NCBI RefSeq assembly: GCF_902729405.1
Contig: NZ_LR746496.1
Location: forward strand, 3,472,001-3,536,000
DNA: 64,000 bases
Direction of reading: 5' to 3'
Origin: Acididesulfobacillus acetoxydans
GTDB lineage: Bacteria; Bacillota; Desulfitobacteriia; Desulfitobacteriales; Desulfitobacteriaceae
The notes beneath the pieces were generated by a model. That model did no database searches. It was not told where the DNA came from and saw only the letters and a list, made by a program, of their open reading frames with translations. The stretch's first letter is position 1. Each line of letters opens with the position of its first letter. The translations under genes and the position numbers were made by a program. Positions 1,091-13,170 of this stretch are shown piece by piece.

Positions 1091-4000
1091 CTAAAGTTGA
1101 CGTTTCACTTCTTCAAGGATGAACGCCTCTATAATATCTCCCTCTTTGATGTCATTAAAACGTTCAAGACCCAGTCCGCACTCATATCCTTCGCTGACCT
1201 CGCGCACATCGTCTTTAAAACGGCGCAGGGAATCAATATTGCCTTCATGGACGACCACTCCGTCCCGAATTACCCGAACTTTAAACGAACGGTTGATCTT
1301 GCCTTCTGTCACGAAGCAACCGGCCACACTCCCAACCTTGGGTACCTTAAAGATCTGGCGCACCTCAGCCTTACCTTGGACCGTCTCCTTGAAATCCGGA
1401 TCCAAAAGTCCGCTCATAGCCGCCTTGACATCCTCGATTGCGTCATAGATAACCCGGTAAAGCCGCACATCCACTCCCTGCAGGTCCGCCGTGTCCTTTG
1501 TATTGGAATCCGGGCGCACATTAAAACCGATGATGATCGCATTGGAAGCAGCCGCCAGCATCACATCCGTCTCGGTAATGGCCCCAACTCCCCCATGAAT
1601 CGGATTTACGCGTACTTCCGCGGTGGACAACCGCTCCAAGGATTGGCGCAGAGCCTCGACGGAACCCTGTACATCCGCTTTAATAATGATGTTGAGCTCT
1701 TTAACCTCACCTTCCTTAATACGGTCAAAGAGATCATCCAAACTCACCTTTACCGTTTGCTTAGCCTCTTCTGCCTTCCGTTCCGACACACGGGCGGTCG
1801 CAATCTGGCGAGCGAGCTTTTCGTCACTGACAATATCGAAGGTCTCACCCGCCATGGGCACCTCCGAAAGGCCTTGGACCTCAACCGGAGTGGAAGGTCC
1901 GGCCTTCTTAACCCGACGGCCTTTGTCGTCAATCATGGCCCGAATTTTCCCGAAGGCCGCGCCGGCCACCATGACATCCCCGACATTCAGCGTCCCCTTC
2001 GCCACAAGTACCGTGGCCACCGGCCCTTTGCCCTTGTCTAATTCCGCTTCAATCACGGTTCCGGCCGCCGGCCGATTGGGATTGGCCTGCAACTCCCGAA
2101 CCTCTGCCACCAGCAAAATCATTTCCAGAAGTTGTCCCAAATTGGCTTTGGTTTTGGCTGATACGGGAACAGCGATGGTATCCCCGCCCCATTCTTCGAC
2201 CACCAAACCATATTCGGTCAGTTCCTGTTTGACCTTGTCGGGGTTTGCGTTTTCCTTGTCAATCTTATTGATGGCTACGATAATAGGCACCTTGGCCGCC
2301 TTGGCATGGTTGATGGCCTCAATCGTCTGAGGCATGATTCCGTCATCGGCGGCAACCACCAGGACCGCGATATCTGTCACTTGGGCTCCTCTGGCCCGCA
2401 TGGCCGTAAAAGCCTCATGGCCCGGCGTATCCAGAAAAGTGATCTTCTGCCCCTTAATCTCCACCTGGTAGGCCCCAATGTGCTGGGTTATGCCACCCGC
2501 CTCGGAGGCAATCACATTCGTCGTTCGAATGGCATCCAGAAGCGAAGTTTTCCCGTGGTCGACATGCCCCATCACCGTGACGACCGGCGGCCGTGGCTTC
2601 AGGGTTTCCGGCGGGTCGACGATTTCTTCTATCACGGTGAGAGGTTTTTCCACTTTGACCTCAACCGTTACGCCCATATCGTTAGCCACAATCGTTGCCG
2701 TTTCGGCATCCAATTCCTGGTTAATGGTCGCCATAACCCCGAGGTTCATCAGCTTCACTATCAATTCTCCCGCCTTACGGCTCATACGGGAAGCTAATTC
2801 TTGCACGGAAATCGATTCCGGAATCACTATGTGTTTCGGTGTCGTATCTTTAACTTCTTTCACCGGCGGCCTATTATTACGACGGTGCGGCCGGCGCAGT
2901 TCCTTTTCGTTGTCACGTCTTTTATCAAAAACCCGATCCGGGGTTTTCTTCTTCTCAGGCACCTGACGCTTAACCGGCTGCTCCGCCGTCGTGGCCGTGC
3001 CCGCTGCGGAGGAAGGACGAGTGGGGCGCCCGGTCCCGGGTCTGCCCGTATGGCCTTCCATTCCCGGACGCGACGGACGGCCCTCCATTCCCGGACGCGG
3101 CGGACGCCCTTCCATTCCCGGACGCGACGGACGCCCTTCCATTCCCGGACGCGGCGGACGCCCTTCCATTCCCGGACGCGGCGGACGCCCTTCCATTCCC
3201 GGACGCGGCGGACGCCCTTCCATTCCCGGACGCGGCGGACGCCCCTCCATTCCCGGACGCGGCGGACGCCCCTCCGTTCCCGGACGCGGCGGACGCCCTT
3301 CCATTCCCGGACGCGGCGGACGCCCTTCCATTCCCGGACGCGGCGGACGCCCTTCCATTCCCGGACGCGACGGACGGCCCTCCATTCCCGGACGCGGCGG
3401 ACGCCCTTCCATTCCCGGACGCGGCGGACGCCCTTCCATTCCCGGACGCGGCGGACGCCCTTCCATTCCCGGACGCGGCGGACGCCCTTCCATTCCCGGA
3501 CGCGGCGGACGCCCTTCCATTCCCGGACGCGACGGACGGCCCTCCATTCCCGGACGCGGCGGACGCCCTTCCATTCCCGGACGCGGCGGACGCCCTTCCA
3601 TTCCCGGACGCGGCGGACGCCCTTCCATTCCCGGACGCGACGGACGCCCTTCCATTCCCGGACGCGGCGGACGCCCCTCCATTCCCGGACGCGGCGGACG
3701 CCCCTCCATTCCCGGACGCGGCGGACGCCCTTCCATTCCCGGACGCGGCGGGCGGCCCTCCATTCCCGGACGCGGCGGACGCCCTTCCATTCCCGGACGC
3801 GGCGGGCGGCCCTCCATTCCCGGACGCGGCGGACGGCTCCCGGGCTCCGAACGGACCGCGCCTCCCTGAACCCTGTCGTTCGGGGAACCCGGCAGCGCTG
3901 CCGCCGAGCTTATCGAACGGGCCTCGCCTCCGTTCGTCTCTTCGTCCGAGCCCGAAGCAACCTGTAAGGGGCCCTGCGCTATCTTTTCTTCCGCGTCCCG

Positions 4001-4848: not shown

Positions 4849-6759
4849 TCACCCCTTAGCCTTCTTCTTGCCGCGGCGGCTCCCTCTCTCCTGTTCGGCG
4901 AAATACTTTTGCATCGCCCTGTCCCGTTCGCTCAGCTTCTCTTCTTTCGGCGGAACGGCCGGTCCCTCCTGGCCTGTCATCCCGCCTTCTGAGCGGTAAT
5001 CTTCTTCCCCTTTTTTGGTTAATCCGTTGGAATTATCATATTCGGGTGAATTGATAAGGTCACCGGGCCGAACCGGATCGGTCGCTTCCCCCGTATGCCC
5101 GCCTACGGCGTACTCATCCTCGCCTTCGGCATCCTCGCCTTCGGCATCCTCGCCTTCGGCATACTCGTCCTCGGCATACTCGCCTTCGGCGTACTCGCCT
5201 TCGGCATACTCGCCTTCGGCATACTCGCCTTCGCCGTACTCGCCTTCGGCATACTCGCCTTCGGCATACTCGCCTTCGGCGTACTCGTCTTCGGCATACT
5301 CGCCTTCGGCGTACTCGTCCCCGGCATACTCACCTTCGGCATACTCACCTTCGGCATACTCGCCTTCGGCATACTCGCCTTCGGCATACTCGCCTTCGGC
5401 ATACTCGCCTTCGCCGTACTCGCCTTCGGCGTACTCGTCCTCGGCATACTCGCCTTCGGCATACTCACCTTCGGCATACTCGTCCTCGGCATACTCACCT
5501 TCGGCATACTCACCTTCGGCATACTCGTCCTCGGCATACTCACCTTCGGCATACTCGCCTTCGGCATACTCACCTTCGGCATACTCGCCTTCGGCGTACT
5601 CGTCCTCGCCGTACTCGCCTTCGGCATATCCGTCGTGGTCCGCATAACCTTGATATATACCGTTCTCGGCAGTTTCGTCGTATTCCGCGGGCATGTCCTC
5701 CGTCTGGGTGGGAATCAACTCCTGAGCCGCCGCTTGAGACTCGCTCTTAATGTCAATTTTCCAACCCGTTAACTTAGCTGCCAAGCGAGCGTTCTGACCC
5801 TCTTTCCCAATAGCCAAAGACAACTGATAGTCGGGGACAACAACGAGCGCCACTTTCTCATTGGCTCTGGGATAGACGTCCGTCACCTTCGCAGGCGAAA
5901 GCGCATTGGCAACATAATCCCGCGGGTCTGCGGAATAGTTGACAATGTCGATTTTTTCGCCCTTCAGTTCAGTGACTATCGTTTGCACCCGGCTGCCCTT
6001 CGGCCCGACACAGGCTCCCACCGGATCCACGTTGGCGTCCCGTGAATAAACGGCTATCTTGGAACGCGCTCCGGCCTCGCGCGAAACGCCTTTGATTTCC
6101 ACAACTCCGTCATGTATTTCCGGTACTTCCAACTCAAAAAGTCTCTTAATCAAGCCGGGGTGTGTACGGGAAAGAAGCACCTGGGGGCCTTTCGTGGTTT
6201 TCTTAACTTCTACCACAAAGGTCTTGATCCGCTCAAAAGGTCGGTATACTTCGCCCGGAATCTGTTCCTGAGCCATGAGAAGAGCCTCCACCTTGCCCAG
6301 GTCAATGACGACGCTTTTTTGTTCATAGCGCTGGACTACACCTGTGACAATATCGCCCTCCCGGTTGATGTATTCGTCGTAAATCATGCCCCGTTCCGCT
6401 TCCCGGATGCGCTGGACGACCACTTGTTTGGCAGTCTGGGCCGCAATCCGGCCAAACTGACGCGGCGTTACTTCGTTCTCTACGATGTCGTCCAATTGAT
6501 AATTAGGATCCACCTTGTGAGCGTCTTCCAAGCTGATTTGGGTACGGGAGTCCTCCACTTGTTCCACCACCGTCTTACGGGCGAATACCTGAAATTCCCC
6601 GCTGACCCGGTCAATGCTCACCCTAACGTTCTGCAAAGAAGCAAAATTTTTCTTATATGCGGAGATCAACGCTGCCTCTATCGCTTCAAAAAGAACCTCT
6701 GCGGATATTCCCCGCTCTTTCTCCAGTTCATGAATCGCTTCGATGAACTCCATATTCAT
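4849..6759 (-). CDS. nusA: transcription termination/antitermination factor NusA with long acidic repeat tail
   Basis: A 636-residue NusA; Gram-positive NusA is usually under 400 residues. The normal part is complete: N-terminal RNA-polymerase-binding domain (residues ~3-125), S1 domain (~135-200, GDIVTGVVQRYEQKSVVIDL), and two KH domains to ~345 (VGACVGPKGSRVQTIV and LAIGKEGQNARLAAKL GxxG loops). From ~378 to ~547 follow about 34 copies of YAEGE and variants (YAEDE, YGEGE, DAEGE), then a mixed-charge tail ending in RRGKKKAKG. The repeat carries roughly two acids per five residues and a Tyr per unit. Two in-frame ATGs (6759, 6753) could start it; 6759 follows AAGGGGG. It is the second gene of the rimP-nusA operon. 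Confidence 0.96.
   Translation of the reverse strand: MNMEFIEAIHELEKERGISAEVLFEAIEAALISAYKKNFASLQNVRVSIDRVSGEFQVFARKTVVEQVEDSRTQISLEDAHKVDPNYQLDDIVENEVTPRQFGRIAAQTAKQVVVQRIREAERGMIYDEYINREGDIVTGVVQRYEQKSVVIDLGKVEALLMAQEQIPGEVYRPFERIKTFVVEVKKTTKGPQVLLSRTHPGLIKRLFELEVPEIHDGVVEIKGVSREAGARSKIAVYSRDANVDPVGACVGPKGSRVQTIVTELKGEKIDIVNYSADPRDYVANALSPAKVTDVYPRANEKVALVVVPDYQLSLAIGKEGQNARLAAKLTGWKIDIKSESQAAAQELIPTQTEDMPAEYDETAENGIYQGYADHDGYAEGEYGEDEYAEGEYAEGEYAEGEYAEGEYAEDEYAEGEYAEGEYAEDEYAEGEYAEGEYAEDEYAEGEYGEGEYAEGEYAEGEYAEGEYAEGEYAEGEYAGDEYAEGEYAEDEYAEGEYAEGEYAEGEYGEGEYAEGEYAEGEYAEGEYAEDEYAEGEDAEGEDAEGEDEYAVGGHTGEATDPVRPGDLINSPEYDNSNGLTKKGEEDYRSEGGMTGQEGPAVPPKEEKLSERDRAMQKYFAEQERGSRRGKKKAKG
5118..5627. 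repeat. 15-bp tandem repeat, ~34 copies, inside nusA
   Basis: About 34 near-identical 15-bp units (forward-strand consensus tcgccttcggcatac) coding YAEGE on the minus strand. Changes are mainly single bases: tcctcg for tcgcct gives D for G, and gccgta for ggcata gives G for A or a synonymous codon. Like the infB repeat 1.3 kb away it is nucleotide-homogeneous, which suggests recent expansion. Frame is preserved throughout. Confidence 0.97.
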
Positions 6760-6799: not shown

Positions 6800-7258
6800 T
6801 CAGAAGTCCACCAGCAAATGCGCCCGAGCGATCAGATCATACGGCAGCCTAATCTGTTCGCCCTGATACTCGAGAATGACTTCCTCCCCCTCCATACCTT
6901 CCAGGTAGCCGGAAAACTCACCGTAACCATGAACGTTTTCTCGAGTGAACACTTGGACAAGCTGACCGCGATAGCGCAGATAATCGTCCTTTTTCTTCAA
7001 GGGGCGCTCCAATCCGGGCGAAGACACTTCAAGCATGTAAGCCTGCGGGATCAGATCTGCCTCATCCAGGATATCTCCGACAGCACGGCTGATCTCCGAA
7101 CAATCATCCAGATCCGCTCCGCCTTCCTTATCAATGTAGAGGCGCAAAAACCAGTGAATCCCCTCTTTTATGTATTCAACATCCACGAGTTCCAAGCCAC
7201 GGGCGTGAACTACCGGCTCGACCAGGGAAGTCACCGCTTCGACCACGTTCTGCTGCAT
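6800..7258 (-). CDS. rimP: ribosome maturation factor RimP
   Basis: A 152-residue RimP, involved in 30S assembly. It has the family's N-terminal alpha/beta domain (GLELVDVEYIKEG, LRLYIDKEGG, DDCSEISRAVGDILD) and YMLEVSSPGLERPLK, the most conserved RimP stretch, followed by the C-terminal Sm-like barrel (YRGQLVQVFT, GYLEGMEGEEVILEY). The ATG at 7258 follows AAGGAG with 7-nt spacing. It is the first gene of the rimP-nusA-ylxR-ylxQ-infB-rbfA-nrnA operon; 40 nt separate it from nusA. Confidence 0.95.
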   Translation of the reverse strand: MQQNVVEAVTSLVEPVVHARGLELVDVEYIKEGIHWFLRLYIDKEGGADLDDCSEISRAVGDILDEADLIPQAYMLEVSSPGLERPLKKKDDYLRYRGQLVQVFTRENVHGYGEFSGYLEGMEGEEVILEYQGEQIRLPYDLIARAHLLVDF

Positions 7259-7488: not shown

Positions 7489-10400
7489 TTAAGAGAACAA
7501 ACTCAGCTGGTTCTCCTCCGGCAGGCCCTTCAAACAGCCCATTTGGCCTAAAACCTCAATGACCGCCGCAGATAGTTTGGCCAGTGAATGCAATTCCTCG
7601 ACAGAAAGAATGCCTTGTGTATCACGCAGCCGCACTACATTCTGAGCGGCCGAGCTTCCCATGCCCTGAATGGCCGCGAACGGAGGGAGCAAGCCGGTAG
7701 GTGTCACTTTAAAGCGGGTTGCGTCCGATTCCCATAAATCCACCGGCCTCACGCACACCCCTCTGCTATACATTTCCACCACCAATTCTAAAATTGTCAC
7801 TAAGTTCTTCTCCTTGGCCGTGGCTTCGTTCCCTCTGCCCTCGATTTCCTTAATTTTCGCCCGGCAGGCGTCCTTACCCCTCAGTATGAGCTCAAGATCG
7901 AACTCGTCGGCACGAACCGTAAAAAAAGTCGCGTAGAAGGCCTGAGGATAATACACCTTAAACCAAGCAATGCGAAAAGCCATGGTAACATAGGCTACGG
8001 CATGGGCCTTCGGAAACATATACTTGATTTTTTGGCAGGATTTGATATACCACTCCGGAACCTGGTGCTGCCTCATCTCTTCTATGTCTTCCGCCTTGAG
8101 TCCTTTCCCTTTGCGAACCCCCTCCATAATCTTAAAGGCCCGTCCCGGCTCCAACCCCCGGTAAATGAGATATACCATAATGTCATCGCGGCAGGCGATG
8201 ATTTCGGAGATCGTCGCCGTTCCGGAGCGGACAAGATCCTGGGCATTCCCCAGCCAGACATCCGTGCCATGGGAAAGCCCCGAAATCCTGACCAGGTCCG
8301 AAAAGCTCTGGGGCCGCGTATCTTCAAGCATCTGCCGTACAAACTTGGTTCCGAATTCCGGGATACCGTAGGTCCCCGTATTGGAGCAAATCTCCTCGGC
8401 GCTCACCCCCAGAGCATCGGGCTGCCAAAACAAGGAGAGAGTCTTGGGATCGTCCAGGGGAATCGTTTTGGCGTTCACCCCCGTCAAGTCCTCCAGCATT
8501 TTGATCACAGTCGGATCGTCGTGCCCCAGAATATCAAGTTTCACCAGGCGGCCCGAGATCGAATGGTAATCGAAGTGAGTCGTCACGGTCTCCGATTTCG
8601 GATCATCGGCCGGCCTCTGCAAGGGGGTAAAGTCAAAAACATCACATTCTTTGGGTACGACCATCAAGCCTCCGGGGTGCTGCCCCGTCGTCCGCTTCAC
8701 CCCGGTGCAGCCTTCCACCAGCCGCGCCATTTCTGCGGAGCGGACCTTCACTTGGCGCTCTTCCAGGTAATTCTTGACATAGCCGTAAGCCGTTTTATCC
8801 GCTATCGTCGCAATGGTCCCGGCGCGGAAGACATTATCCCGGCCAAAGAGCTCTTCCGTGAATTTGTGCGCCTTGGGCTGGTAATCACCGGAAAAATTCA
8901 AATCGATGTCCGGAACCTTATCCCCCTTAAAACCCAAAAAAGTCTCAAAAGGAATATCGTGCCCGTCTTTAGCCATCTTCCCCCCGCAACGCGGACAATC
9001 CTTATCCGCCAAATCCACACCCGAACCGGCACTCCCGTCCTCAACCCAGATGGAATGAAGACACTCTGGATTAAGACAACGATAGTGGGGGGGAAGGGGA
9101 TTCACCTCTGTTATTCCGGTCAGGGTCGCCACCAAGGAAGAACCCACCGACCCTCTTGAACCGACCAAATAGCCATCCTCATTGGATTTCTTCACCAGAA
9201 GATGAGCAATCAGATAGAGCACAGAAAACCCATGCCCAATAATGGCGTTCAGTTCCTTCTCCAGGCGTTTTCGCACCACATCCGGCAAATCCCTGCCATA
9301 TAACTCACGCGCCCTCTGCCAGGACATAGATTCTATTTTTTCCTCCGCTCCGGGAATCGTCGGCGAAAAGAGGTCATCGGGAAACGGCTTCAGGACTTCT
9401 ACCTGGGCGGCCAAGTGTTGCGGTGCTCTAACCACGACCTCGAAAGCCTCCGTCTCGCCGAGATAAGAAAATTCCTCCAGCATTTCTTCGGTCGTCCGAA
9501 AGTACAGAGGAGCTTGATCATCCGCATCCTCAAAACCCTTGCCGGCCATCAGGATCCGGCGATACGCCTCGTCTTCCGGGTCAAGGAAATGGACATCACC
9601 TGTAGCCGCCACCGGCTTGTTCAGAGCCCTGCCCAGACGCAGGACCGTACGGTTGAGTTCCCGCAACCCTTCTTCATTCCGGACGAGACCGCTGCGCAAC
9701 ATGAAGGCGTTGTTCCCGCGCGGCTGAATCTCTAAATAATCATAAAAAGAAGCCACCTCGAGAAGTTTTTCCCAAGGTTCCTGCTTGAGAATGGCCTGAA
9801 CCAGTTCTCCGGCCTCACAGGCGGAACCGATAATGAGACCGGTGCGATGCCGGGCCAGCACTGATTTGGGAATGCGCGGGCGGCGATGAAAATACTCCAG
9901 GTGAGAACACGTGATGAGCTTGTACAGGTTCTTGAGTCCGACTGCATCACGCACCAAGAGCACCATGTGGCGGCTCTTCATCTGCTGGGGTGGAGTACTC
10001 GGTTCGGAGATGTCATCAATGAGATAACCCTCCACTCCCAGGATTATTTTCACTCCGTATTTTTTCCCGGCCTCCACTGCTTCCGGAAAGGCCTGAACCA
10101 CACCATGGTCCGTAATAGCCAGCGCGGCATGTCCCCAGAGACCCGCCCGGCGGATGAGGTCTTCTGCCGAAGAGATACCGTCCATGGCGGACATCCGGGT
10201 ATGCAAATGAAGCTCCACCCGTTTTTCCGCGGCTTGATCGACCCTCACCATGGGGGACACTCTGACCATATCCTTGGGCATGAAGGTCAGTTCGCCGGAA
10301 AAACGGTCAAACTGAACCGGGCCGCCGGCTTTGATCCATTCACCGTCCCGCAAATCCAGAGGCGCGGCTTTTTCACCGCCAAACACCTTGGCCGACATGG

Positions 10401-11169
10401 AATCCGTCCTGTCCGTCAGATTAAACGTCGTCAGTTTGCGCCCGCTTTTCAATTGCCGCTGCTCCAGCGCAAATACCCGTCCTGTCAACACAACTCGGCG
10501 TTCCTCATCCACAATGCTCCTCAGCGGGACAGGTTCCTCTTCAATCTCTTTACCCAGAATGCAGTCCGACCTGGGGGGTGCTTTCTTTTCAGGAGCAGGC
10601 GCCATTAACCGTTCAAGGCATTCCTTTTCCGCCTGCTCTGTTAACCGGTCATAATCAGGCTCTTGCCGCCCCGGGTCGTATTCACACCGAATTCGGAGCC
10701 GAATCCCAAAAGTGTCAAAGAAATACTCTTCCACTTGGGCTTGCTTCAATTGAAAATATTCCACACCCAAAGCGTTGGGCGCAGGCAAGACCAGTGTCTC
10801 CCCCCGAATTTCATAGCCCGAACCCAGCCAACCCTTCATCGCCGGAAAACTTTCTCCCAACTCACGCACGATCCGCGGCCAGTTCCGGCTGCAAATCTGG
10901 GCCAACGCCTGATCTCCTTCGGGACACTCCAAATGCCATTCCATCCCAATCCCCGGTGCGTTCCCCTCCAAGACCTCTCTCAGGGGCCCTAATGAGCATT
11001 CGTCAACTTCGCAGGGTGAATAAAGATGGAAAATCCACTTTTTCTTCTCAGGGTATACCTCCACCCGTTTCAACGCCAGCAAGTCCAGGACGGGCCCCAG
11101 CCTCTCCCGCCAAGTGGGCATAAAGCGGGAGAGGAGCGGGACCTCCGCCAGCGGCATCAGCCTAGCCAT
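7489..11169 (-). CDS. polC: DNA polymerase III alpha subunit PolC lacking the exonuclease domain
   Basis: A 1226-residue C-family replicase; PolC of Bacillus and Staphylococcus is about 1440. Order seen: N-terminal domain (1-215), OB fold (~225-305), PHP domain from RVELHLHTRMSAMDG (H321, H323) with AITDHGVVQAF and LGVEGYL, then directly HMVLLVRDAVGLKNLYKL. The DnaQ-like 3'-5' exonuclease usually inserted there, with its DxExTG motif, is absent. The polymerase part has the PolC zinc module (CLNPEC ... CPRCGGK), the catalytic PDIDLNFSGDY, KLDILGHDDPT and a fingers/HhH C-terminus ending QLSLFS (beta-clamp-binding type). ATG 11169 follows GAGGAAAACGA. No frameshift is visible, so the domain is missing rather than split. 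Proofreading would need a separate protein or the PHP site (inference). Confidence 0.95.
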   Translation of the reverse strand: MARLMPLAEVPLLSRFMPTWRERLGPVLDLLALKRVEVYPEKKKWIFHLYSPCEVDECSLGPLREVLEGNAPGIGMEWHLECPEGDQALAQICSRNWPRIVRELGESFPAMKGWLGSGYEIRGETLVLPAPNALGVEYFQLKQAQVEEYFFDTFGIRLRIRCEYDPGRQEPDYDRLTEQAEKECLERLMAPAPEKKAPPRSDCILGKEIEEEPVPLRSIVDEERRVVLTGRVFALEQRQLKSGRKLTTFNLTDRTDSMSAKVFGGEKAAPLDLRDGEWIKAGGPVQFDRFSGELTFMPKDMVRVSPMVRVDQAAEKRVELHLHTRMSAMDGISSAEDLIRRAGLWGHAALAITDHGVVQAFPEAVEAGKKYGVKIILGVEGYLIDDISEPSTPPQQMKSRHMVLLVRDAVGLKNLYKLITCSHLEYFHRRPRIPKSVLARHRTGLIIGSACEAGELVQAILKQEPWEKLLEVASFYDYLEIQPRGNNAFMLRSGLVRNEEGLRELNRTVLRLGRALNKPVAATGDVHFLDPEDEAYRRILMAGKGFEDADDQAPLYFRTTEEMLEEFSYLGETEAFEVVVRAPQHLAAQVEVLKPFPDDLFSPTIPGAEEKIESMSWQRARELYGRDLPDVVRKRLEKELNAIIGHGFSVLYLIAHLLVKKSNEDGYLVGSRGSVGSSLVATLTGITEVNPLPPHYRCLNPECLHSIWVEDGSAGSGVDLADKDCPRCGGKMAKDGHDIPFETFLGFKGDKVPDIDLNFSGDYQPKAHKFTEELFGRDNVFRAGTIATIADKTAYGYVKNYLEERQVKVRSAEMARLVEGCTGVKRTTGQHPGGLMVVPKECDVFDFTPLQRPADDPKSETVTTHFDYHSISGRLVKLDILGHDDPTVIKMLEDLTGVNAKTIPLDDPKTLSLFWQPDALGVSAEEICSNTGTYGIPEFGTKFVRQMLEDTRPQSFSDLVRISGLSHGTDVWLGNAQDLVRSGTATISEIIACRDDIMVYLIYRGLEPGRAFKIMEGVRKGKGLKAEDIEEMRQHQVPEWYIKSCQKIKYMFPKAHAVAYVTMAFRIAWFKVYYPQAFYATFFTVRADEFDLELILRGKDACRAKIKEIEGRGNEATAKEKNLVTILELVVEMYSRGVCVRPVDLWESDATRFKVTPTGLLPPFAAIQGMGSSAAQNVVRLRDTQGILSVEELHSLAKLSAAVIEVLGQMGCLKGLPEENQLSLFS

Positions 11170-11281: not shown

Positions 11282-13006
11282 CTAATGTTCCAGGGCCTTC
11301 TGGACAATCCCTTGGACCTTTTGGGCCACCTCCGCCACCGGCACCAACTCTGTAGCCCCGGTTTTGCGCGCTCGGAGTTCGACCTGCCCTTGTGCCAAAG
11401 CCTTGCTGCCGACCGTAACCCGCAGGGGGTAACCCACAAGGTCGGCGTCTTTAAATTTAACTCCCGGGCGCTCATCCCGGTCGTCGATCACCACTTCGAT
11501 CCCCATCCCGAGCATCTGCCAGTAAAGCTGCTCGGCTGTTTCCCCCACCTGCGCATCTTTGGCGCCGACCGGCACAATGATACAGTGGTAAGGTGCAATC
11601 GCAACCGGCCAAATAATCCCGTTTTCATCGTTATTTTGTTCGATGGCCGCGGCCGCCGTCCGGGTCACACCGATCCCGTAACACCCCATCACGCAAGGCT
11701 TCTCCTCGCCCGTCTCGTCAAGATAGGTCGCCTGCATGATTTTACTGTATTTTGTGCCCAAATTAAAGACCTGACCCACTTCAATGCCGCGAGCCGCTTC
11801 CAGCGGAGCACCGCACTTCGGACAGGCTTCTCCTTTCTCCACCATCCTCAGATCAAATACCTTATCCAACCGGAAATCCCGCTCCGGTACCGCGTTGAGA
11901 TAGTGATAGTCGGCCTTGTTGGCGCCGCAGACGGTCTGACTCAGTAAGGGAACTTCCAAATCCGCCACGACCGTTAAATCGTCCGGAATACCCACCGGCC
12001 CCACAAAACCGGCCTCCGCTCCCAAAACCCGGCGGACTGTTTCCGGCCCCGCCAACTCCAGCCGGATGAAGCCCCCCAGCGCATTGTTGAGTTTGATTTC
12101 GTTGACTTCCCGGTCTCCCCGGACCAAAACCAGGAACACTTTCTCGTCACCTTGGTACAGCAGAGCTTTCAAGAGCCGGTGTTTCGGCAGGTTCAAGAAA
12201 GTACTGAGCGCTTCTATGGACTTCGCTCCCGGAGTGTGAACAAGTATCCGTTCCTCGCCCCCAGCCTCCGTCCTGACAGAACGGGGCAGGCACTCCGCTC
12301 GCTCGACATTGGCTGCGTAATCACACTTGGGGCAGAAAACTACGGCCGCCTCCCCGGAATCCGCCAAGACCATGAACTCGTGTGAACCCCCGGTTCCCCC
12401 GATAGCCCCCTGATCCGCTTCCACCGGACGAAACTTTAGACCGCAGCGTCTAAAGATACGGGCATAGGCATCATACATTTTGCGGTAGCTGACCATAGCC
12501 TCTCGTTCATCCCGATCAAAGGAATACAGGTCCTTCATGATAAATTCCCTGCCCCGCATCAAACCGAAACGCGGCCTGCGCTCATCCCTGTACTTATTTT
12601 GAATTTGGTAGAGGAGCAGCGGCAGCTGCTTGTAGGACCTGACCTCTGAGCGGATAAGTTCCGTGATCAGTTCCTCATGAGTCGGGCCCAAACAAAATTC
12701 ACGTTCATGCCGGTCGCGCAGCCGGAACATTTCCGGCCCGTAAACCTCCCAGCGGCCGCTTTCCCGCCACAGTTCCGCCGGCTGGACAATGGGCAGAAGG
12801 ACTTCCTGCCCGCCCTCGGCGTCCATCTCTTCGCGGACGATCTGTTCAATCTTCCTCAAAACCCTCAGTCCGAGGGGCAAATGCGTATAAATCCCGGCCG
12901 CCGCCTTGCGAATGTAACCCGCTCTCAACATCAGGCGATGACTGACAACCTCCGCCTCCGCGGGCACTTCCCGCAAAGTCGGATCGAAAAGTTGGCTTAC
13001 GCGCAT
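11282..13006 (-). CDS. proS: prolyl-tRNA synthetase (bacterial type, with INS editing domain)
   Basis: A 574-residue class II ProRS that charges tRNA-Pro. Motif 1 region ([15 protein letters not shown]), motif 2 ([20 protein letters not shown]), the ~180-residue INS/YbaK-like editing insert ([17 protein letters not shown] ... GFVGPVGIP), motif 3 ([17 protein letters not shown]) and a C-terminal anticodon-binding domain are all present. I take ATG at 13006, preceded by AAAGGA with 8-nt spacing; a longer frame upstream to 13051 has no site. It lies between ispG and polC as in many Firmicutes. No T-box leader was recognised in the 164-nt upstream gap. Confidence 0.95.
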
Positions 13007-13170
13007 CGAATCATTCCTTTCTGTCTGTCTCTGCCGGCATTCCGCCGCCATCTCAGCTCTCTCTCTAACCCTGATCTCCTCTATCCAGCCTTAGCCCTTC
13101 ATCGAAATTCGTTCACTATCCCGCCCCGCGGGAATCCTCCCCGTCCACAGCCGACCCTTCGCCCGGCCGG

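Follow-up and report, generated by a model that had tools for sequence, protein, structure and literature searches.

The window analysed here, a stretch of 64,000 nucleotides from Acididesulfobacillus acetoxydans (contig NZ_LR746496.1, positions 3,472,001 to 3,536,000), contains a polC gene whose product is a PolC-type DNA polymerase III alpha subunit without the DEDDh exonuclease. From sequence conservation we infer, with a probability of about 0.6, that the PHP domain is catalytically active and is the remaining proofreader of such exonuclease-less (exo-less) PolCs, as opposed to those containing the exonuclease (exo+). The architecture itself is not new and was already published in 2013 (Timinskas et al., PMC3919608). 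The features of the gene and of its product are the following:

7489..11169, reverse strand: polC, 1226 amino acids, start codon ATG, without DEDDh exonuclease insertion (open reading frame, Pfam, NCBIfam and exonuclease hidden Markov model, HMM)
10270..10494, reverse strand: OB-fold domain, residues 226-300 (Pfam PF01336, 26.1 bits, slightly below the cut-off of 27)
9580..10224, reverse strand: PHP domain, about residues 316-530 (PF02811, ligands and predicted structure)
within the PHP domain: the nine metal ligands H321, H323, D330, H355, E380, H401, C451, D525 and H527
9970..10029, reverse strand: loop of 20 residues (381-400) at the site occupied by the exonuclease in other PolCs (spacing of the ligands E380 to H401)
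8887..8913, reverse strand: polymerase active-site motif PDIDLNFSG, residues 753-761 (sequence)
7495..7509, reverse strand: C-terminal QLSLF (sequence), which we take to be a putative clamp-binding-type motif

The PHP domain corresponds to a single uninterrupted Pfam match (residues 319-476), and its outer limits were set by us around this match and the last ligand. The OB fold precedes the PHP domain and the HhH is found at the C-terminus; Pfam also detects DNA_pol3_alpha, the finger and HHH_6, the latter over its cut-off. The matches to the N-terminal subdomains NI and NII are weak, with PF11490 (18.1 bits, E 0.0026) and PF14480 (13 bits, E 0.1) both below cut-off. The protein matches the curated PolC models NF001688 (1542 bits, cut-off 873) and TIGR01405 (1419 bits, cut-off 1043), and the best-scoring stretch of these alignments begins past the exonuclease columns. 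No Pfam exonuclease was detected at E<=1 over the whole protein. Scored with an exonuclease HMM derived from 28 exo+ relatives, this protein reaches about -1 bit, against 274.8 to 340.4 bits for 52 exo+ rows (one row per PolC sequence). An exonuclease located elsewhere in the chain is thus ruled out by Pfam, NCBIfam and this HMM. A deletion confined to the assembly is ruled out as well, the architecture being shared by the congener CEB3 (93% identity) and by the 18 other rows of a clade of 20, whose members come from its genus, family, order and class and from named relatives.

The structure predicted for residues 205-620 (pLDDT 91.7, pTM 0.84) has as best PDB match by E-value the structure 3f2b (4e-45, query TM 0.81), an engineered PolC of G. 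kaustophilus in which, as in the window PolC, the exonuclease is absent and the PHP domain is closed. In 3f2b, however, the exonuclease was taken out for crystallisation (PMC12592400), and PMC5636811 describes the G. kaustophilus PolC as having one PHP ligand mutated and as being without exonuclease activity, unlike the window PolC, in which the absence is natural and all ligands are present. The canonical PolCs (B. subtilis; E. faecium, 9qpc) have the PHP, palm, finger and HhH in common with it, and differ from the window PolC by the DEDDh domain inserted in the PHP; the N-terminal domain match is weak in the window PolC. These results bear out most of the sequence-only reading made earlier on this DNA. 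It had described a PHP domain uninterrupted by any DnaQ-like domain, with intact metal ligands and polymerase active site, in a protein about 210 residues shorter than Bacillus PolC; this last value is correct within a few residues with respect to the B. subtilis length. The OB fold that it called intact is seen, albeit with a score just under the threshold. The profile search and the comparison with related PolCs that it had suggested both agree with an absence of exonuclease, shared by the whole clade.

PolC was found in 217 of the 299 genomes of the phylum that were sampled. The exonuclease is absent in 117 of them, present in 91 and decayed in two (G137 and G266), and seven others end at contig borders and were left unclassed (G193, G127, G273, G083, G297, G196 and G076). 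For 35 of the 117 exo-less genomes (L149-L181, the window and L256), the classification comes from reading the proteins and scoring them with the exonuclease HMM, and for the other 82 from frame length and start of the TIGR01405 match alone. The survey PMC3919608, where PolCs without the insertion are counted as PolC, gives a frequency of 6%, all but one of these PolCs being found in Clostridia and Negativicutes, and a figure of 16% for the systems combining PolC and DnaE1. The exo-less PolCs described there likewise have a PHP domain without inserted exonuclease and a DnaE1 in the genome, so that nothing essential differs from the window PolC apart from the frequency (6% of PolCs against 117/217 PolC genomes here, in a sample weighted differently from the set of 2013). 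The exonuclease HMM divides 177 PolC rows, second copies included, into two classes composed of the 52 exo+ rows on one hand and of 125 rows with at most 15 bits on the other hand. After exclusion of the short or broken pieces (L007, L008, L018, L073, L125 and L184) and of 15 second copies (L005, L119-L123, L126, L127 and L129-L135), the 163 remaining rows held near-copies, and the counts were repeated on 150 rows with less than 99% core identity, called distinct below. The number of residues between the PHP ligands E and H is 212 to 216 in the 43 distinct exo+ PolCs and 12 to 23 in 104 of the 107 distinct exo-less PolCs; the three others display spacings of 30, 44 and 84, and none of them scores as an exonuclease. 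The longest of these loops (L169, genome G068) is acidic and rich in alanine and proline.

The nine PHP ligands, with the sequence HHDHEHCDH, are intact in the window PolC and in 106 of the 107 distinct exo-less PolCs. They agree with the nine-ligand motif HHDHEH[C/H]DH reported for PHP-type proofreading exonucleases (PMC12926913). According to PMC5636811, the PHP domain is the essential replicative exonuclease in mycobacteria, and mutation of D23 or D226 abolishes the PHP exonuclease of M. tuberculosis. The same paper indicates that the DEDD domain of PolC occupies a loop beside the PHP site, and that this loop comprises 29 residues in M. tuberculosis DnaE1 and 18 in Taq; the 20 residues of the window PolC are roughly comparable, with the proviso that the loop limits may differ between counts. 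M. tuberculosis DnaE1 shares the nine ligands with the window PolC. It is nevertheless a polymerase of the DnaE type with a demonstrated activity (PMC5636811), whereas the proofreading by the PHP of the window PolC is presumed. In the mechanism that we propose, the PolC of this lineage would have lost the DEDDh domain that is inserted in the PHP loop of other PolCs; misinserted bases would be excised by its own PHP domain, working as a trinuclear-zinc exonuclease similar to that of M. tuberculosis DnaE1, perhaps with the assistance of the PHP domain of the partner DnaE1. Among the three outcomes considered by the sequence-only reading (a separate exonuclease, proofreading by the PHP or tolerance of mutations), the PHP is the best supported, its activity being a deduction, and a stand-alone DnaQ is not supported. 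This preference comes from the intact ligands of the exo-less PolCs, from the 38 exo-less genomes (of 117) in which no RNase_T match was detected, and from the lack of a clear RNase_T enrichment in exo-less genomes.

Several observations weigh against proofreading by the PHP domain. Most of the distinct exo+ PolCs (37 of 43) have the nine ligands as well, so that their conservation may reflect the structure or another activity; the six exceptions (L089-L094) make up a single clade, presumably Bacilli, in which the eighth ligand is changed from D to N. At least one RNase_T match is present in 79 of the 117 exo-less genomes. The models PF00929 and TIGR00573 could overlook distant DEDD nucleases, and a weak partial match to TIGR00573 (18 bits) appears in the genomes G181 and G206, neither of which has an RNase_T match. 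The rows are related by ancestry, and the counts do not represent independent events. Finally, the bulk of the synthesis might be the task of DnaE1.

This last point concerns the source genome directly, a single contig of 4.52 Mb (97.7% complete). It encodes a DnaE1 (NF005298, 1568 bits, over cut-off) whose PHP ligands appear intact by eye, and a DnaE2-like polymerase (L004, positions 2288042-2290882 of the genome) with NF004225 as best model (804.6 bits, below the cut-off of 939). In a table of PMC3919608, PolC, DnaE1 and DnaE2 occur together in 3 of 945 genomes. The gene of the DnaE2-like polymerase is preceded by a gene for a protein of 347 amino acids, considered as a possible ImuB, which has no Pfam or NCBIfam match. 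Because DnaE1 is also present, as is the DnaE2-like polymerase, the status of PolC as main replicase is an assumption. DnaE1 could then be the main replicase, and PolC, restricted to a limited role, would need little proofreading or would be edited in trans by the PHP domain of DnaE1. Timinskas et al. raised this possibility (PMC3919608), and PolC seems dispensable in some lineages, as the PolC model finds nothing above DnaE-strength matches in 82 of the 299 genomes of the phylum. We nevertheless consider it unlikely, as the exo-less PolCs have kept their PHP ligands almost without exception and, in all but one of 111 rows, the polymerase motif, and as each of the seven single-contig genomes in the family of the window has a full-length PolC, exo-less or exo+.

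Editing in trans by a stand-alone DEDDh exonuclease seems very improbable. The source genome contains two RNase_T matches, a DinG helicase with an exonuclease domain and KapD, a protein of 203 amino acids (NCBIfam, 192.8 bits, cut-off 169), either of which could play this role, as could an unrecognised DnaQ, and most exo-less genomes have an RNase_T match, as stated above. However, no separate DnaQ-family protein passes the TIGR00573 cut-off in the source genome, where the sole match lies inside the 968-amino-acid DinG frame, and among ten genomes searched with this model only the source genome passes the cut-off, through DinG. The genome search proposed in the sequence-only reading therefore returns only DinG and KapD, and a separate exonuclease is unsupported. 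Exo-less genomes are not clearly enriched in RNase_T matches outside PolC, with means of 1.16 for the 117 exo-less and 1.00 for the 91 exo+ genomes (p=0.26); a first run had given 1.08 and 1.01 (p=0.43) for 64 exo-less genomes, G076 among them, and 86 exo+ genomes. Compensation by a stand-alone DnaQ is not supported by this comparison, and the 38 genomes without any match argue in the same direction. It is equally hard to believe that more frequent mutations are simply tolerated in the lineage, with mismatch repair as a buffer and tandem repeats as a by-product. MutS1 is present (1020.8 bits), and the source genome (G000) is rich in repeats, with 9.6 arrays per 100 kb, seven of them with at least five copies. 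The exo-less genome G206 has 5.4 arrays per 100 kb and the exo+ genomes G312 and G301 have 2.9 and 4.2 (12 stretches per genome), so that both exo-less genomes exceed both exo+ ones. Against this, arrays of at least five copies are absent in the three other genomes, including 240 kb of G206, which is without RNase_T match, and four genomes differing in G+C decide nothing either way. The occurrence of the exo-less state throughout the clade of 20 rows and in more than half of the PolC genomes fits a stable state and not a mutator.

Proofreading by the PHP domain is further favoured by the genus g97 of the family f23, in which the exonuclease is decayed or deleted and the PHP ligands are kept. 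In this family of 16 genomes, 11 PolCs match the PolC model without interruption through the exonuclease, and the five that were read (L257-L261) have kept the DEDDh motifs. The genus g97 is composed of three species on one branch with 100% support (rows L254, L255 and L256, from G137, G266 and G103, respectively). In G137 and G266, a remnant of 198 residues is devoid of the DEDDh residues and scores 29 and 44 bits with the exonuclease HMM, against 241 to 270 bits in L257-L261. In G103, 39 residues are left at the exonuclease site and the domain is deleted. All three PolCs keep HHDHEHCDH, and no RNase_T or TIGR00573 match was detected in any of the three genomes. The dN/dS of the pair G137/G266 is 0.36 for the remnant and 0.10 for the core, whereas an intact pair of similar core identity gives 0.086 for the exonuclease and 0.064 for the core; the remnant thus evolves faster, though not freely. 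The assemblies are drafts of 130 to 160 contigs, and the decay is common to two species. By its sequences, the g97 exonuclease appears to be caught in decay, with catalytic residues lost in two species and the domain deleted in the third. This pattern is contrary to the generalisation of a 2026 survey, and no paper on decayed PolC exonucleases was found in a single search of a collection of open-access papers.

Phylogenetic trees of the polymerase core require at least six changes of the exo state with 104 rows, or at least five with 60 rows, of which well-supported branches force just three or four. A single exo-less clade was rejected (AU p=0.00014; 36 versus 24 rows, short-search tree). Exonuclease identity and core identity vary together (Mantel r 0.973, 43 distinct rows, 0/999 permutations), a pattern that fits a single insertion inherited with the gene, followed by several losses; the change counts alone do not separate gain from loss.

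In the family of the window, which the named loci suggest to be the Desulfitobacteriaceae, exo-less and exo+ PolCs occupy different loci wherever the flanks were compared. The neighbours of polC in the window, with names that we presume from the standard gene order, are:

11282..13051, reverse strand: proS, upstream neighbour
6800..7258, reverse strand: rimP, downstream neighbour
4849..6759, reverse strand: nusA, the tail of which carries an expanded repeat of the EYAEG type

The order proS-polC-rimP-nusA is also found with exo+ PolCs. A search of 45 genomes with the window PolC gave, among the rows listed, 17 genomes with an exo-less PolC and 21 with a full-length exo+ one. Two of the 17 are broken, with two stops in G328 and two pieces in G320. 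Both types occur in G309 and G328, two bins contaminated at 8% and 6% that constitute weaker evidence of co-occurrence than single-contig cases; nine other genomes contain fragments or none. An exo-less polC adjoining proS and interrupted by stops (L018, L125 and L184) was observed in a bin that contains an exo+ PolC. In those loci of the family where the flank is long enough, proS adjoins the exo-less polC; in many of them rimP and nusA come after it, whereas they are farther away or outside the flank in L014, L018, L020 and L025. The exo+ PolCs of the family (L095-L097, L136-L148, L183 and L185-L188) are localized far from the exo-less ones in the tree, and one clade uniting five exo-less and three exo+ family PolCs was rejected (AU p=0.0033). 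None of proS, ispG, rimP and nusA was found in the flanks of eight exo+ loci from seven genomes (L095-L097, L183 and L185-L188), these flanks being of about 1.5 kb in three cases. No PolC remnant was detected by tblastn in 9-10 kb after proS in six exo+ genomes, and proS and rimP are directly adjacent in two of the exo+ genomes (G124 and G003). From the distant tree position, the different locus and the missing remnant, it seems that a distantly related exo+ PolC was transferred to another locus and replaced the exo-less gene in many species of the family. The six neighbours searched at L187 are only metabolic and signalling genes, with no mobile context. A single search of a collection of open-access papers found none describing such a PolC replacement. 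In G336, a Paradesulfitobacterium-type genome, a fragment with stops (C18:59808-60074, beside L025/L123) lies about 1.2 kb past polC and displays 41% identity to the C-terminus of PolC; is it the remnant of a second PolC?

We give about even odds to the more general proposal that the loss of DEDDh in Bacillota is recurrent and stepwise, with catalytic death followed by deletion, that in many genomes no C-family proofreader other than the PHP is left after it, and that it can be reversed when a foreign exo+ PolC, encoded elsewhere in the genome, replaces the whole polymerase, as in the family of the window. PolC is a drug target usually shown with a built-in DEDDh proofreader, a domain that is missing from most of the PolC genomes sampled here, and the RNase_T search found no possible substitute in the 38 exo-less genomes without match. 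If the general proposal is true, the PHP domain would by itself suffice for replicative proofreading in PolC organisms. The exo-less bacteria offer a natural test of whether a genome can be protected by the PHP alone, a question still open for the C-family replicases, and the g97 decay series and the apparent gene replacement suggest how a proofreading domain disappears from a replicase and how a lineage acquires one again.

A link between the exo-less PolC and repeat expansion, raised in the sequence-only reading, is not established, and a weak link is possible in view of the array frequencies given above. The large NusA-tail expansion is found only in the window and in CEB3 among nine NusA tails, all from exo-less loci; the seven others are shorter, partly repetitive Y/D/E sequences. 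In the window, the repeat of the nusA tail extends from 5115 to 5628 (34 copies of 15 bp), and a further repeat lies downstream from 3054 to 3835 (29 copies of 27 bp). Both units are also repeated in CEB3 (L009), where the 27-bp array is cut off by the end of the locus.

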